NCBI GenBank assembly: GCA_017441825.1
Contig: JAFRVD010000086.1
Coordinates: forward strand, 1 to 64,000
Length of the DNA: 64,000 nucleotides
From: Lachnospiraceae bacterium
GTDB taxonomy: Bacteria; Bacillota; Clostridia; Lachnospirales; Lachnospiraceae
Direction: 5' to 3'
Below the pieces are notes generated by a model. It had not been told where the DNA came from. It ran no database searches and was given only the letters and a program-made list of their open reading frames with translations. Positions 14,778 through 35,237 of this stretch are shown in pieces. The translations under genes and the position numbers were made by a program. Within the stretch, counting starts at the first letter, position 1. Each line of letters starts with the position of its first letter.

Positions 14778-14813
14778 GAGGGGGAAGAGGCGCCTGTCTT
14801 TTCCCTCTCTTTT
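14778..14813 (+). terminator. Terminator after the serpin gene
   Basis: An 11-bp stem with two G-U pairs (14778-14788 with 14797-14807) is followed by TCTTTTC. Confidence 0.7.
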
Positions 14814-14840
14814 CACGTCTTCTTTTCACGTCTTCTTTTC
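14809..14840 (+). repeat. 13-bp pyrimidine-rich tandem repeat
   Basis: CTTTTCACGTCTT occurs twice back to back (14809-14821, 14822-14834), then a 6-base partial third copy. It directly follows the serpin terminator and may just extend its U-tract. Confidence 0.7.
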
Positions 14841-27748: not shown

Positions 27749-29284
27749 ATGTCATACTCAGTACAGGTCTATACGAAAGAGGCTTTTCCTGATACTTATC
27801 CGGACGGGCTTGCCAGGAGCGTCCATTTCGCGCTGCTCGGGGAAGACGGCAGCCGGACGGAGCTGAACCGCGGATACGGGATGCTCTTTGCGAGAGGGGA
27901 GATCAGCCCGGAGGGGACCATCGTCCCGAAGGCGCTCCGGGACCCGGAGATTTCGAGACTTCCTGACGGGAGCTTCCTGATCCGGGCAGTAAGGACAGAA
28001 GAGGACGGGACGGAGGAGTCTTGCGGGGCGGCCGGACCGGGTGTGCCGGGCGCGGACCCCGCGCCGGGTGCTGATTCCGGGACTGCAGAAGCACGGCCTG
28101 TTTCACGGAATACCCTGTGCTGGACATCCATAGACCTGATACATTTCACGGAAGTTCATTCTGCCGGCAGAACAGAGGCGGAATACCTGCCTGCTGCTCT
28201 CACTGATGAAGAAGCCGCGCGAATCCTCGCATTCTGGAACGCAGAGCCCGGAAAACCGCTCACGGCGTTTCCGTGGGCTTCAGGCCTTGCGGATCCGGTG
28301 TTCTTCCGTCACGGCGGGAAGTGGTATTTCATCTTCACAAACGACAATGTGAACGACATCGGCATCTACATCCGTGAAGCGGACACGATCCCGGAGCTTC
28401 TGCGGGACGACACTCCCATACACCTGATCCTCGCCCCGAACAAAGAGAAGGGGCTCATCCAGACGTTCTGGGCGCCGGAGATCCATGAGATCGGCGGGGA
28501 GCTCTGGATCCTCTTTGCGGTGAGCGCGGAGGAGTTCGGCCCCTGCTGCCACATGATGAAGCTGAAGCCGGGCGGCCGCCTGACGGGCCCGGATTCTTAC
28601 GAGGAGCCGGTGCCGGTCCGGCGGAGGGACGGGAGCGTTCTCACGGTGCCGGAGTACCGGCTGAGGACCCCCGCGGAACGCATGGAGGACCGCCCGGTAA
28701 CGGCGGAGGACGGGCCCATCGACGACCGTATTGGCATCTCCCTGGACATGACGTACCTGGAAGACGCCGGGAGAGCGTATGTGCTTTGGTCGTACCGGAA
28801 GGGCATCGCCGGGTCCGCGGGGCTTGGCGGGCCGAAGGACAGCGGGTCGATGATCCTGATCGCGGAGATCCGAAAGGAGCAGCCGTGGCAGCTGATTTCA
28901 GATCCGGTGCTCATTTCCCGGCCGCTCTACGGCTACGAAAACGCTCGCGGGACCGTGAATAACGAAGGTCCGTACGTGTATAAACGGGACGGCGTGATCC
29001 ACGTGAACTACAGCGGCGGGGACGCGCGCGGGTACCTGTACGTCGTGAACCTGCTCTCCGCGAAGGCGGGCTCCGACCTGCTCGATCCGGCCTCGTGGAA
29101 GAAAAGGAACACCCCGCTCCTGAACTTCACGACGTATCCGGGGGTATACGGCCCCGGCCACAACTCTTACTTTACGGACGAGGACGGCAGGGACTGGATC
29201 GCGTTCCACGCGGTGGACTCGATGGACGGGAAGAGAGTGTCGGTCGGGATATATGAATATCCAACAAACATGCTGATGAAATGA
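27749..29284 (+). CDS. Glycoside hydrolase family 43 enzyme
   Basis: 511 residues and no signal peptide. Five-bladed propeller signatures of GH43 are visible: KALRDPEISRLPDGSFLIRA near residue 60, FWAPEIHEIGGELWILFAV (catalytic/pKa Glu-Asp region), SLDMTYLED, NEGPYVYKRDGVIHVNYSGG and GPGHNSYFTDEDGRDWIAFHA. GH43 members are arabinofuranosidases, arabinanases or xylosidases. An unusual Gly/Pro/Ala-rich insert of about 25 residues (about 92-117) interrupts the first blade. The last codons merge with a tandem repeat array. AGGAAAGG precedes the ATG. Confidence 0.87.
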   Translation: MSYSVQVYTKEAFPDTYPDGLARSVHFALLGEDGSRTELNRGYGMLFARGEISPEGTIVPKALRDPEISRLPDGSFLIRAVRTEEDGTEESCGAAGPGVPGADPAPGADSGTAEARPVSRNTLCWTSIDLIHFTEVHSAGRTEAEYLPAALTDEEAARILAFWNAEPGKPLTAFPWASGLADPVFFRHGGKWYFIFTNDNVNDIGIYIREADTIPELLRDDTPIHLILAPNKEKGLIQTFWAPEIHEIGGELWILFAVSAEEFGPCCHMMKLKPGGRLTGPDSYEEPVPVRRRDGSVLTVPEYRLRTPAERMEDRPVTAEDGPIDDRIGISLDMTYLEDAGRAYVLWSYRKGIAGSAGLGGPKDSGSMILIAEIRKEQPWQLISDPVLISRPLYGYENARGTVNNEGPYVYKRDGVIHVNYSGGDARGYLYVVNLLSAKAGSDLLDPASWKKRNTPLLNFTTYPGVYGPGHNSYFTDEDGRDWIAFHAVDSMDGKRVSVGIYEYPTNMLMK

Positions 29285-29289
29285 GTTGT

Positions 29290-29790
29290 GTTGGCTTGAA
29301 AGGGCAGGAAATCCTACAAGGAGTGTAAAATAGTCTGCTAAGTGGGGCTTGAAAAGGCAGATAGTCCAACACGAGTGAAGATATAACAAGCTATGTAGGG
29401 TTTGAAAGGGCAGAACGTCCAACTTAGGGAGAACAATAACAAGTTAAGTAGGACTAGAGAGAGTAGAAAGTCCAACAAGAAGAGCATAACTACTGGCCAA
29501 GTTGGGTTTTAGAGAGCAGAACGTCCAACATGAAAAGCAAATCAACAAGCTAAGTTGGGTTTTAGAGAGCAAATAGTCCAACATGGTAGACGAAATAGCC
29601 GGTCATGTTGGGCCAAAACAAGTAAACTGTCCAACATAGAGGGCAACAATAACAAGACATGTTGGGGTAGACCGCTCATACAGCCCAACAAGGAGAGCAA
29701 AATAACAAGCCATGTTGGACCAGAGCAGGCATACAGCCCAACTCAAAAGGCAATAAGACAGGCTATGTTGGAAAACAACAGGAGGAATTC
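29290..29790 (+). repeat. Tandem array of 53-bp dyad repeats between two GH43 genes
   Basis: Unit starts fall at 29290, 29342, 29395, 29448, 29501, 29554, 29607, 29661, 29714 and (partial) 29767: spacing 53 bp except one 52 and one 54. Each unit is a 29-nt segment bounded by GTTGG and CCAAC, then a 24-nt linker of similar A-rich sequence ending near ACAAGCCAT. Units 29501-29714 keep the GTTGG/CCAAC arms exactly; those nearer the upstream gene are more degenerate. The region is A/T-richer than its surroundings and runs into the ribosome site of the second GH43 gene. The linkers are similar to each other, so it is not a CRISPR array. No function is known to me. Confidence 0.93.
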
Positions 29791-31230
29791 ATGAAGAGCT
29801 ATCTTGACAGTATCAAAGAGAACCTGAAGCAGCACGTCAACCCGTACCTCCCGTCCTGGGAGTACGTCCCGGACGGTGAGCCGTACGTATTTGGCGACCG
29901 GGTGTACGTGTACGGTTCACACGACAAATTCAACGGCGACGTCTACTGCATGGGCGATTACGTCTGCTGGTCCGCTCCCGTCGATGACCTCGGCGCATGG
30001 CGGTACGAGGGCGTGATCTACCGGAAGGACCAGGACCCCGTGAACGGCGACCTGCAGGGCAACCTCTACGCGCCGGACGTGGCAGTGGGCCCGGACGGGC
30101 GGTACTACCTCTACTACGTGCTGTCCGACGTGGGCTTCGTCTCCGTTGCGGTCTGCGATACCCCCGCCGGCTCCTATGAATTCTACGGCTACGTCCACTA
30201 TGCGGACGGCGTGAGGCTTGGGGACCGCCCCGGCGATGAGCCCCAGTTCGACCCCGGCGTCCTCCGTGAAGGCGACAGGACCTACCTGTACACAGGCTTC
30301 TGCGGCGCGGGCGACAAGTCCCGCCACGGCGCGATGTGCACCGTGCTCGGCCCGGACATGCTGACTGTCATCGAGGATCCGGTGTTTGTAGCGCCCGGCC
30401 AGGAGTACAGCGCGGGCACCGGCTTTGAAGGCCACGCGTTCTTTGAGGCGCCGTCCATCCGGAAGCGCGACGGCAAGTACTATTTCATCTATTCCTCACA
30501 GCTCTTTCACGAGCTTTGCTACGCCGTGAGCGACGACCCGCGGGAAGGCTTCAAATACGGCGGGTGCATCATCAGCGCAGGCGATCTCGGTATAGATACC
30601 TACAAGCCCGCGGATCAGTGCATGTTCTACACCGCAAACAACCACGGCTCCATGGAATGCATCAACGGTGACTGGTATATCTTCTACCACAGGCACACGA
30701 ACGGCACGAACTACAGCCGCCAGGGGTGCTTTGAGAAGATTTATTTCAACGAAGACGGCAGCATCCCGCAGGTCGAGATCACGTCCTGCAACGGCCTTGA
30801 GCCGCTCCGCGCGGAAGGGTTCTACCCCTCGTACATCGCGTGCCAGCTTTTCACGGACACCTTCGTGACCTACGTCCCCTGGTCCGGCTGGATGGACGAC
30901 CGGTTCCCGAAGGTCACCCAGGAGGGCGGCGATGGAGACGAAAACTACGGCTATATCGCGAACATGCGGCCGGGCGCCGCGGCGGGCTACAAGTACTTCG
31001 ACTTCAAGGGTGTGAAAAAGGTGACCGTCTCCACCAAGGGCTACGCGAAGGGCTTCATCGACGTGAAGCTTTCGTGGAACGGAGAGACCATTGGCTCGAT
31101 CCCAGTAGAATACGCGAACGTCTGGCGGCTTTCATCCGCGGATATTGAGATCCCGGACGGCGTTTCCCCGGTCTACTTCACGTTCCGCGGCTTCGGATAC
31201 CTCCAGTTCGGCGGCTTCGGATTCAACTGA
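29791..31230 (+). CDS. Glycoside hydrolase family 43 enzyme with C-terminal beta-sandwich
   Basis: The 479-residue protein opens KQHVNPYLPSWEYVPDGEP (GH43 catalytic-base region), then NLYAPDVAVGPDGRYYLYY (pKa-modulating Asp) and HAFFEAPSIRKRDGKYYFIYS (general acid Glu). After about residue 335 a CBM6-like jelly roll follows, ending YFTFRGFGYLQFGGFGFN. This layout matches GH43 beta-xylosidases and arabinofuranosidases. No signal peptide, so it acts on imported oligosaccharides. GGAGGAATTC precedes the ATG, directly after the repeat array. Confidence 0.9.
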   Translation: MKSYLDSIKENLKQHVNPYLPSWEYVPDGEPYVFGDRVYVYGSHDKFNGDVYCMGDYVCWSAPVDDLGAWRYEGVIYRKDQDPVNGDLQGNLYAPDVAVGPDGRYYLYYVLSDVGFVSVAVCDTPAGSYEFYGYVHYADGVRLGDRPGDEPQFDPGVLREGDRTYLYTGFCGAGDKSRHGAMCTVLGPDMLTVIEDPVFVAPGQEYSAGTGFEGHAFFEAPSIRKRDGKYYFIYSSQLFHELCYAVSDDPREGFKYGGCIISAGDLGIDTYKPADQCMFYTANNHGSMECINGDWYIFYHRHTNGTNYSRQGCFEKIYFNEDGSIPQVEITSCNGLEPLRAEGFYPSYIACQLFTDTFVTYVPWSGWMDDRFPKVTQEGGDGDENYGYIANMRPGAAAGYKYFDFKGVKKVTVSTKGYAKGFIDVKLSWNGETIGSIPVEYANVWRLSSADIEIPDGVSPVYFTFRGFGYLQFGGFGFN

Positions 31231-33551: not shown

Positions 33552-35237
33552 ATGGGAAAGAAATTACTGGCACTCCTTCTGGCTGTTGTCATGATCCTGT
33601 CTCTGGCTGCCTGCGGCGGCGCGTCCTCAACGGATGACACCAAGGCTCCGGCAACGGACAAGGCTGAAGAAGCAGAAGAACCGGCAGCTGAAGAAGCAGA
33701 AGATGCAGAAGAAGCTGAAGCTCCGGCAACGGACGGCGATGCATGGGATGCATGGGCTGACATCGACACCTCCGAGCACGTGGTCATCAATTACATGACG
33801 ACCGGGGACGCGCCCACAACGGGCTGCAACGACGAGATGCTTGCAGAGCTCAATAAGATCCTCACCGATAAGGTCAACGCTGAGATCAACATCTACTGGA
33901 TCTCCTGGACCGACTATCTTGCAAACTACAACCTGACGCTTGCCCGTATGGACGGTTCCGTCGACCTCGTCGGTTCCGCTACCGACTGGCTTGATGCATG
34001 GCCGAATGCAAAGAATGGTGCGTTCCTTGAGCTTTCCGAGGAAGATCTTAAGACCTACGCTCCCAAGACCTGGGCTTCTGTTCCTCAGGAGCACTGGGAT
34101 TACTGCAAGTATGACGGCGAGATATACTTTATGCCCGAAGATAACTATGCGCAGTGGACCAACCACGGCTTTGCGTACCGTCTGGACTGGGCCCGTGAAG
34201 CAGGCCTTGCTGACGGCGTGAAGAGCTGGGAAGACCTGACCACCTACTTCAAGTACGTTAAGGAAACCTACGGCGATCAGCTGATCGCGCTGTGGGATAC
34301 CGACGGCGGCGCATATCCGGCAGGCGGCTACATCCAGTCCCATACCGACTGGACCTCCCTCAACGGTATCTGCTCCGGTGCCCTTTGGGGCGCTTATGAC
34401 AGCGACGAGTTCACCGTTAAGTGTGAATATCTGGAAGAAACCGACAACCTGATCGCATACGCGAAGATGATGAAGGAATGGGACGAGATCGGCGTATGGC
34501 CGACCGACGTTCTTTCGAACACCGGCTCGGACAACAGACTGGAGTTCCGTCAGGGCAAGACCGCTGTTGAGCAGCATCATACCCAGACCTGGACCGGCCT
34601 TGTTTCTCCGAAGGCTTCCACCGACAATACGATGTACGTCGACAATCCCGATGCTGAAGTCGGCTTCTTCTACTATGGCATGGAGTCCAAGAACGTGAAG
34701 CGCGACCTCATCACACACGGTGTCTGCGCGATCTCCGCAGCTTCCAAGAATCCTGAGAGAGCTCTCATGGTCTACGATATGCTGAGAAACGACGCTGACT
34801 GCTACGACCTCTTCAACTACGGTATCAAGGGCCGCTCCTATGACGTTGATGAAAACGGCCTGAGATTTACGCCGGACAGCTACAATGCTGATACCGACAG
34901 CATTTCCACCAACTGGTGGTGGGGACGTAACGATGACCTCGAGATCCCGTCCGCTGCCATGAACTGGGATGCCATCAACGCACTGTACGAAGAGTACGAA
35001 GGCTTCGCGAAGCTGTATCCGTGGGAGAACTTCGTTCCGGATATGGATGCGATCCAGTCCTACGTCAACAACTGCCAGGACGTGTACACCAAGTACATGA
35101 AGCTGATCTGCTACGGTCAGTACGATGGCTCTGAAGAAGACATGGTCGCTGAATTCCAGCAGGCTCTTCGCGACGCCGGCGCTGAGAAGGTCACGGAAGC
35201 TCTTCAGGCTCAGTTTGACGCATTCTACGGAAAATAA
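33552..35237 (+). CDS. Extracellular sugar-binding lipoprotein (LplA-like)
   Basis: 561 residues: a lipoprotein signal ending LAAC (Cys21), a long acidic E/A-rich linker (about 25-60) and a family 1 solute-binding fold. It delivers oligosaccharides to the two upstream permeases. Aromatic-rich segments (NNWWW-like TNWWWGRND, YPWENFVPD) fit stacking on sugars. Codons such as gct and gaa are used much more than in the neighbours, the pattern of a very highly expressed gene. AGAGGAG precedes the ATG. Confidence 0.93.
   Translation: MGKKLLALLLAVVMILSLAACGGASSTDDTKAPATDKAEEAEEPAAEEAEDAEEAEAPATDGDAWDAWADIDTSEHVVINYMTTGDAPTTGCNDEMLAELNKILTDKVNAEINIYWISWTDYLANYNLTLARMDGSVDLVGSATDWLDAWPNAKNGAFLELSEEDLKTYAPKTWASVPQEHWDYCKYDGEIYFMPEDNYAQWTNHGFAYRLDWAREAGLADGVKSWEDLTTYFKYVKETYGDQLIALWDTDGGAYPAGGYIQSHTDWTSLNGICSGALWGAYDSDEFTVKCEYLEETDNLIAYAKMMKEWDEIGVWPTDVLSNTGSDNRLEFRQGKTAVEQHHTQTWTGLVSPKASTDNTMYVDNPDAEVGFFYYGMESKNVKRDLITHGVCAISAASKNPERALMVYDMLRNDADCYDLFNYGIKGRSYDVDENGLRFTPDSYNADTDSISTNWWWGRNDDLEIPSAAMNWDAINALYEEYEGFAKLYPWENFVPDMDAIQSYVNNCQDVYTKYMKLICYGQYDGSEEDMVAEFQQALRDAGAEKVTEALQAQFDAFYGK

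Follow-up and report, generated by a model that had tools for sequence, protein, structure and literature searches.

An inverted-repeat array between two GH43 genes of a Lachnospiraceae bacterium, probably a solo copy of a nuclease-associated, helically phased array

Arrays of palindromic repeats that lie next to the gene of a DNA-cutting or nuclease-type enzyme are known from REP/RAYT and from TIGR-Tas, which are among the closest described counterparts of the element considered here. For the REP and BIME sequences with their RAYT (TnpA-REP) enzymes, PMC2817692 describes palindromic intergenic units of alternating orientation and regular spacing; arrays adjoin the gene of the DNA-cutting enzyme, additional copies occur in trans, and every enzyme has a repeat of its own. 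For TIGR-Tas, PMC12045711 describes palindromic units in tandem next to a gene of nuclease type, the sequence of the unit varying from locus to locus.

The window, which is the whole stretch of DNA that was analysed, comprises 64,000 nucleotides of a Lachnospiraceae genome (GCA_017441825.1, contig JAFRVD010000086.1) and contains a tandem array of inverted-repeat units, or dyads. Judged by its architecture, period and sequence, this array is of the same kind as arrays that accompany a family of predicted nucleases in related bacteria. It is probably an orphan (trans) copy of such a phased array, whose sites would be bound as double-stranded DNA, that was copied away from its gene.

The array between the two GH43 genes

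An earlier note, made from the sequence of the window, had described a 53-bp tandem array between two GH43 genes. The array is real, as seen from its positions (Table 1) and from a lag-53 self-identity of 0.598 over 29255-29785, against a maximum of 0.372 among 1000 shuffles at lags 30-129. Scanned in 42 chunks of 1.5 kb, the window holds this one array only, at 29260-29772. Whilst the period of 53 proposed in the note stands, the GTTGG...CCAAC segment that was taken for the unit is replaced by a CCAAC-24-GTTGG dyad. This dyad is regarded as the natural unit because the array both starts and ends with a complete one and because the same dyad recurs in other genomes; the half unit that the note saw at the 3' end of the upstream GH43 gene is in fact the whole first dyad. 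The window dyads have the form YCCAAC...GTTGGR, with some arms altered, and measure 36 bp (one 37) including one flanking base on each side. B-DNA makes one turn in about 10.5 bp, and the window array combines inverted arms with a period that is close to whole helical turns, the two features of a phased dyad array. Two short tandem repeats elsewhere in the window, at 14797-14840 (13 bp x 3.5) and 33666-33720 (9 bp x 6.4), are unrelated to it.

Table 1. Features of the array region in window coordinates. Left arms are CCAAC and right arms GTTGG except where remarked; the strand given for the array is the purine-rich strand, which is also the gene sense.
Feature	Positions	Strand	Left arm at	Right arm at	Remarks
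Upstream GH43 gene	27749..29284	+			PF04616, 1.9e-26; neighbour, outside the proposed system
Whole array	29260..29772	+			ten dyads separated by nine spacers; period 53, with one step of 52 and one of 54
Dyad 1	29260..29295	+	29261	29290	overlaps last codons and stop codon (29282-29284) of upstream GH43 gene
Dyad 2	29312..29347	+	29313	29342	arms CCTAC / GTGGG
Dyad 3	29365..29400	+	29366	29395	right arm GTAGG
Dyad 4	29418..29453	+	29419	29448	right arm GTAGG
Dyad 5	29471..29506	+	29472	29501	
Dyad 6	29524..29559	+	29525	29554	
Dyad 7	29577..29612	+	29578	29607	
Dyad 8	29630..29666	+	29631	29661	37 bp
Dyad 9	29684..29719	+	29685	29714	
Dyad 10	29737..29772	+	29738	29767	last; complete dyad at array end
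AGGAGG of second GH43 gene	29780..29785	+			just beyond the array; last dyad ends 7 bases earlier
Downstream GH43 gene	29791..31230	+			PF04616, 4.7e-21; neighbour, outside the proposed system

The array could be the result of a neutral tandem duplication, in other words a functionless local expansion that arose by chance. Such an origin would suit the three altered right arms, of which both GTAGG pair incompletely with a neighbouring CCAAC, as well as linkers that are 67% conserved and a sister GH43 pair that has no array. It is nevertheless quite unlikely, since over the ten units the arms are kept at 96% column identity against 67% for all other columns (Mann-Whitney p 1.3e-5), and since arrays of the same build recur at other loci, in other genomes and at nuclease genes. 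That the array is the neutral remnant of one that formerly had a function, on the other hand, is part of the best reading.

The sister pair belongs to RUG14875, where syntenic GH43 genes are separated by 49 bp from stop to start and lack the array, compared with a gap of 506 bp in the window, and the locus is read as an empty site; the GH43 protein is 94% identical over residues 1-325, up to the contig end. As the array is absent from this pair and its relatives adjoin unrelated genes (25 array contexts), a link to GH43 was set aside, and an element specific to GH43 genes is not what the array represents. Binding by LacI proteins, which had also been considered, loses its reason, since it is a nuclease gene that the array's relatives accompany. 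That gene lies near two of 80 GH43 loci (L095 and L097), all of them sampled for GH43 in the first place. Near GH43 homologues there is also a 61-bp tandem array, probably one array present in two records (L120 5299-5744 and L129 6458-6906), which is without clear inverted arms and precedes a frame that by eye resembles a LacI-type regulator.

Related arrays and the genes beside them

The earlier note had allowed for the outcome that no similar arrays would exist elsewhere; a search for recurrence found a second one in the same genome and more in genomes of the genus and family. The second array (contig C82, found by DNA search) has six units of 53 bp, some with CCTAC/GTAGG arms, and is flanked by a permease-like and a PASTA-type gene (named by eye). 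A model of the 16 units of this genome from the window and C82 (R1) matched three of 15 genus genomes at E 0.1, own genome counted. Its matches in the genomes G001 and G009 are arrays with a period of 74-75 and the arms CCGACC/GGTCGG and TCCACCC/GGGAGGA, which keep the dyad length of the window and a similar purine-rich loop despite their other arms. The kinship in sequence extends to an array beside a nuclease gene, as R1 reaches the G009 array upstream of that gene with an E of 1.9e-4. Beyond the genus the R1 matches are single sites, and those that were read (e.g. at L048) looked coding; they were rejected.

A second model (R2) was made from 53 of the 54 dyads listed by regular expressions, one being omitted as its flank lay beyond the contig end. 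R2 matched five of the 15 genus genomes at E 0.1 and six of 397 family genomes at E 0.01, own genome counted, with matches on nine array-bearing contigs of G001 and, in G289, to three evident 53-bp arrays whose arms are CCGACT. No array was found in G191, a further R2 match, and the matches in G292, G302 and G188 were rejected as arrays since they look like single terminator-type hairpins. Long-loop hairpins of the terminator type from other genomes score on R2 as well (L224 2472-2590, L225 2400-2450 and L226 2310-2360), and the arrays might have begun from such hairpins. Matches to a CCAAC-arm pattern in 10 of 61 genomes were discarded, being mostly single sites, some of them self-complementary, with spacing that is not array-like. 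Several of the G001 arrays have beside them a second repeated hairpin-rich element (GAGGAGGCGCTAA...GCGCC; L035 297-400, L045 1795-1900 and L019 297-420), and the flanks of those arrays match one another. In G289 a 45-bp tandem repeat of the ATGTCATTC / TTTCTGTCGTTGG type abuts a 53/54-bp array within the same intergenic stretch (L221 2600-3530).

At four loci (L095, L222, L168 and L227) related genes start 44-61 bp downstream of the array. The proteins of this family are about 275 amino acids long; the first four reached no Pfam or NCBIfam cut-off, and 30 members gave no NCBIfam match and weak single Pfam matches only. The alignment of these 30 members contains 18 invariant columns, including R-S-K-x-E, D-F and E-H-x-G, which we take to be the pattern of PD-(D/E)XK nucleases. 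All 30 match the C-terminal end of the PADLOC profile PDC-S68 (best 2.5e-32) and 19 match HEAT_CxxC_PDDEXK. With an E...D-F...E-x-[KH] motif and this domain similarity, both expected of the PD-(D/E)XK superfamily, the partner family is a PD-(D/E)XK-like predicted nuclease. A search of solved structures with the family gave nothing convincing. For the middle region, hints of a DNA-binding fold are limited to single weak Pfam matches, to the lambda integrase arm-binding domain (0.061) and MBD (0.084), in one member each and among 22 such weak families over the 30 members. The family occurs in 125 of 397 Lachnospiraceae genomes (E 1e-10), often in several copies, in 10 of 15 genus genomes (1e-5) and in 23 of 291 class-sample genomes, of which seven are of the own family. 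In a set of viral contigs 34 pattern matches yielded no confirmed relative. Phage and plasmid records hardly contain the family, the matches being three phage records (one covering 90% at 32.5%) and two partial plasmid matches.

Arrays of this build adjoin most of the examined genes of the nuclease-like family, in Lachnospiraceae as well as in other clostridia. Flanks of up to 1.5 kb were scanned by self-similarity. A first pass (threshold 0.58, N left in) gave an upstream array at 75 of 117 loci and an array on either side at 81 of 117; its period-40 rows came from stretches of N, and N was barred from matching afterwards. In the second pass (threshold 0.6), 129 loci scored 100 bits or more, and 105 of those had a flank of 600 bp or longer on each side; among these 105 nuclease genes an array was found upstream in 66, downstream in 19, on either side in 73 and on neither in 32. 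At the same threshold, which was also that of the scan of the 42 window chunks, four of 482 control chunks of 1.5 kb contained an array, two of the four being the same array in two records. The controls were GH43 loci without the nuclease from genomes other than those of the nuclease loci, mostly clostridia and some Bacillota, and a fair chance expectation for two flanks of up to 1.5 kb is about 2%. Some of the arrays counted may not be built of dyads, because the scan detects any tandem repeat with a period of 36-159, and inverted arms with at least three occurrences were found at 59 loci. At L097 (6400-6840) the scan gave no array upstream of the nuclease, which is 59% identical to the L095 nuclease; TTCGCC / GGCGAA-like words in this stretch resemble, by eye, the CTTCGCC arms of L095.

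Several genomes hold arrays both at the nuclease gene and elsewhere, with common arms. These are CCGACC in G001 (the nuclease-side array on C355 and other arrays), CCACCC in G009 (C137 at the nuclease, C68 and C100) and CCGACT in G289 (C19 at the nuclease, C9 and C13). The common arm of G001 is not an effect of the search, because R1, by which those arrays were first reached, was trained on CCAAC and CCTAC arms. In G009, C68 and the C137 locus have 483 bp in common at 82%; the shared stretch comprises the array with about 120 bp before it and 98 bp after it and excludes the gene. G009 also has CCGAC-armed arrays, and no second nuclease was found in its assembly. Copies in trans are not general, as the arms of C60, a contig of the window's own genome (G000), were matched at C60 only, and those of L095 form an array only at the L095 nuclease, besides which G000 and G009 contain three isolated single matches.

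The window array is termed an orphan copy and not a complete system because the 64-kb window holds no nuclease gene. The only nuclease found in its own genome (on C60) adjoins GCCATAATT-armed repeats of another period, and no examined nuclease flank holds two CCAAC dyads, so the window array is paired with the nuclease by kinship only. As the assembly is 81.6% complete, the cognate gene may be missing from it rather than lost.

Helical period and the nature of the sites

Repeat length in these arrays tracks multiples of the DNA helical pitch. The strongest array at each of 90 loci has a period that falls into clusters at 42, 51-54, 61-64, 73-75, 83-86, 94 and 103-107, with a few arrays off this comb (36, 37, 48, 70 and 71). 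When the nucleases were collapsed at 60% identity, the circular concentration of the 75 remaining arrays, which are not fully independent because related nucleases tend to share a period, peaked at 10.35-10.45 bp with an R of 0.745. None of 5000 null sets, in which periods were jittered by up to 8 bp, reached this value (maximum 0.467). A rotational constraint on the duplex is the direct reading, and this family-wide comb of about 10.4 bp strengthens the earlier note's suggestion of many binding sites aligned along one side of the DNA.

Such a comb has no reason in single-stranded RNA, and this counts against the view that the array encodes an RNA, in which a transcript of purine-rich sense would form hairpins or small RNAs that guide, protect or attenuate, in the manner of TIGR-Tas or leader elements. 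In favour of this view, gene sense coincides with the purine-rich strand both in the window and in the first four cis cases. The RNA of the array is also predicted to be more stably folded than shuffled sequence on the + strand (z -4.41), although the - strand shows the same tendency (z -3.23). At unforced columns of the genus dyads, G.T pairs outnumber A.C pairs by 29 to 13 over three column pairs and by 39 to 15 with a fourth, a lean that favours RNA; among 30 dyads of G001, co-variation is seen at one column pair that was not forced (Fisher p 0.014, the copies not being independent). This lean stands as contrary evidence; many of the genus dyads are copies of each other. Other pair counts on the genus dyads, which also look RNA-like, were set aside as biased, because the regular expressions that picked the dyads forced complementary central columns, and the tests on 16 units and on 77 arrays are unsupportive.

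In the latter test (77 arrays, 477 dyads, nuclease sense strand), 1472 of 2853 position pairs beside the arm seeds are Watson-Crick, 271 are G.T and 261 are A.C. RNA hairpins are thus unsupported across the family, because pairing in a sense-strand RNA should favour G.T and here G.T is no commoner than A.C. Symmetry that runs past the arm seeds without a G.T excess is as expected for duplex sites. Arm co-variation, a check proposed in the earlier note, showed no excess over shuffles in the 16 units of the own genome, and Rfam returned only a chance-level match below the gathering score for 28900-30100. Differences between units amount to drift and not to distinct spacers, and the units of G289 are nearly identical. 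The RNA hairpin or mRNA element that the note had proposed is thus without family-wide support, and an array-encoded RNA is considered rather unlikely.

Sites on duplex DNA may instead serve some other host protein, such as a regulator or nucleoid protein, with the nuclease being merely a gene that this protein often controls or that travels with the sites. Phased dyads suit any cooperative dimeric binder, the arrays are in the position of an operator (a median of 54.5 nt to the matched part of the gene at 82 loci with an upstream array), and co-variation between the arms and the conserved middle region of the protein gave a partial r of 0.064 (p 0.16). It is improbable, however, that the binder is a host protein of this sort. 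The arms differ between nuclease loci, which makes one shared host regulator unlikely, and they differ between C60 and the CCAAC arrays within the own genome.

The proposed system and its known counterparts

The preferred reading remains that of an orphan copy of a nuclease-associated array. In this proposal the protein, possibly as a dimer, would bind double-stranded DNA at the inverted arms, with one complex after another lying on the same face of the helix. Beside its gene, the array may serve to load the nuclease, to hold it or to switch it off, and also as its operator, whilst copies elsewhere, which would arise by a process starting from the gene-side array, could be decoys or the solo remnants that a copying event left behind. 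The CCAAC array of the window would then have diverged in its linkers between the two GH43 genes, and the assembly holds no nuclease gene that matches it. It is an evenly balanced question whether this extends to a widespread clostridial system, in which a small nuclease and its own helically phased inverted sites, specific to the lineage, seed further chromosomal arrays, the window array being a solo descendant. Such a system could be a nuclease-driven selfish repeat, by analogy with REP/RAYT but with another enzyme, or it could be an immunity device that is held in check by binding its own array.

What gives the proposal its wider relevance is a family that is present in 125 of the 397 sampled genomes, is unnamed in Pfam and NCBIfam and lies mostly beside arrays that follow the helix. 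Should the protein recognise its own array, the family would offer many natural protein-site pairs of differing specificity, and bacterial genomes would have a further route by which to gain intergenic repeats. The proposal, if true, would also explain repeats that are easily mistaken for gene-specific RNA elements, as with the window array. No paper on such a nuclease-array pair was found in the open-licence PMC literature, and the proposed nuclease-and-binding-array system would be undescribed within that literature; a description in other journals is possible.

Integron attC sites have the cores GTTRRRY and RYYYAAC, which GTTGGGT and GTCCAAC happen to fit. Unlike attC sites, the relatives of the window array have arms that are CCGACC, CCACCC or unrelated, and no cassettes lie between the units; integron attC, CRISPR and iterons were all considered and set aside. 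The PADLOC proteins PDC-S68 and HEAT_CxxC_PDDEXK, which are candidate defence proteins, share a related C-terminal nuclease domain with the partner family, but the PDC-S68 profiles have about 1200 residues and only the last 115 or so positions match.

The likeness to TIGR-Tas (PMC12045711) lies in tandem palindromic arrays beside a nuclease-type gene and in units that are specific to the locus. In contrast to TIGR-Tas, which has a Nop domain with RuvC or HNH and variable spacers, the units here are without distinct spacers, and no Pfam match to Nop, RuvC or HNH was found in 30 members of the partner family, which sets it apart from TIGR-Tas. With REP/RAYT, as described in PMC2817692, the arrays share regularly spaced palindromes that occur beside a gene of DNA-cutting type and also in trans, with a repeat specific to the locus, the nuclease here being a predicted one. 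Dispersal ranges from two arrays in the own genome and nine in G001 to the C60 and L095 arms, which stay at their nuclease. Unlike REP/RAYT, the partner has a PD-(D/E)XK-like motif and no Pfam family in place of a tyrosine HUH transposase, and the arrays lie mostly upstream (66 vs 19 of 105) where a RAYT gene is framed by two inverted units. A further difference from REP/RAYT is that the period of the arrays described here is quantised by the helical pitch of DNA.
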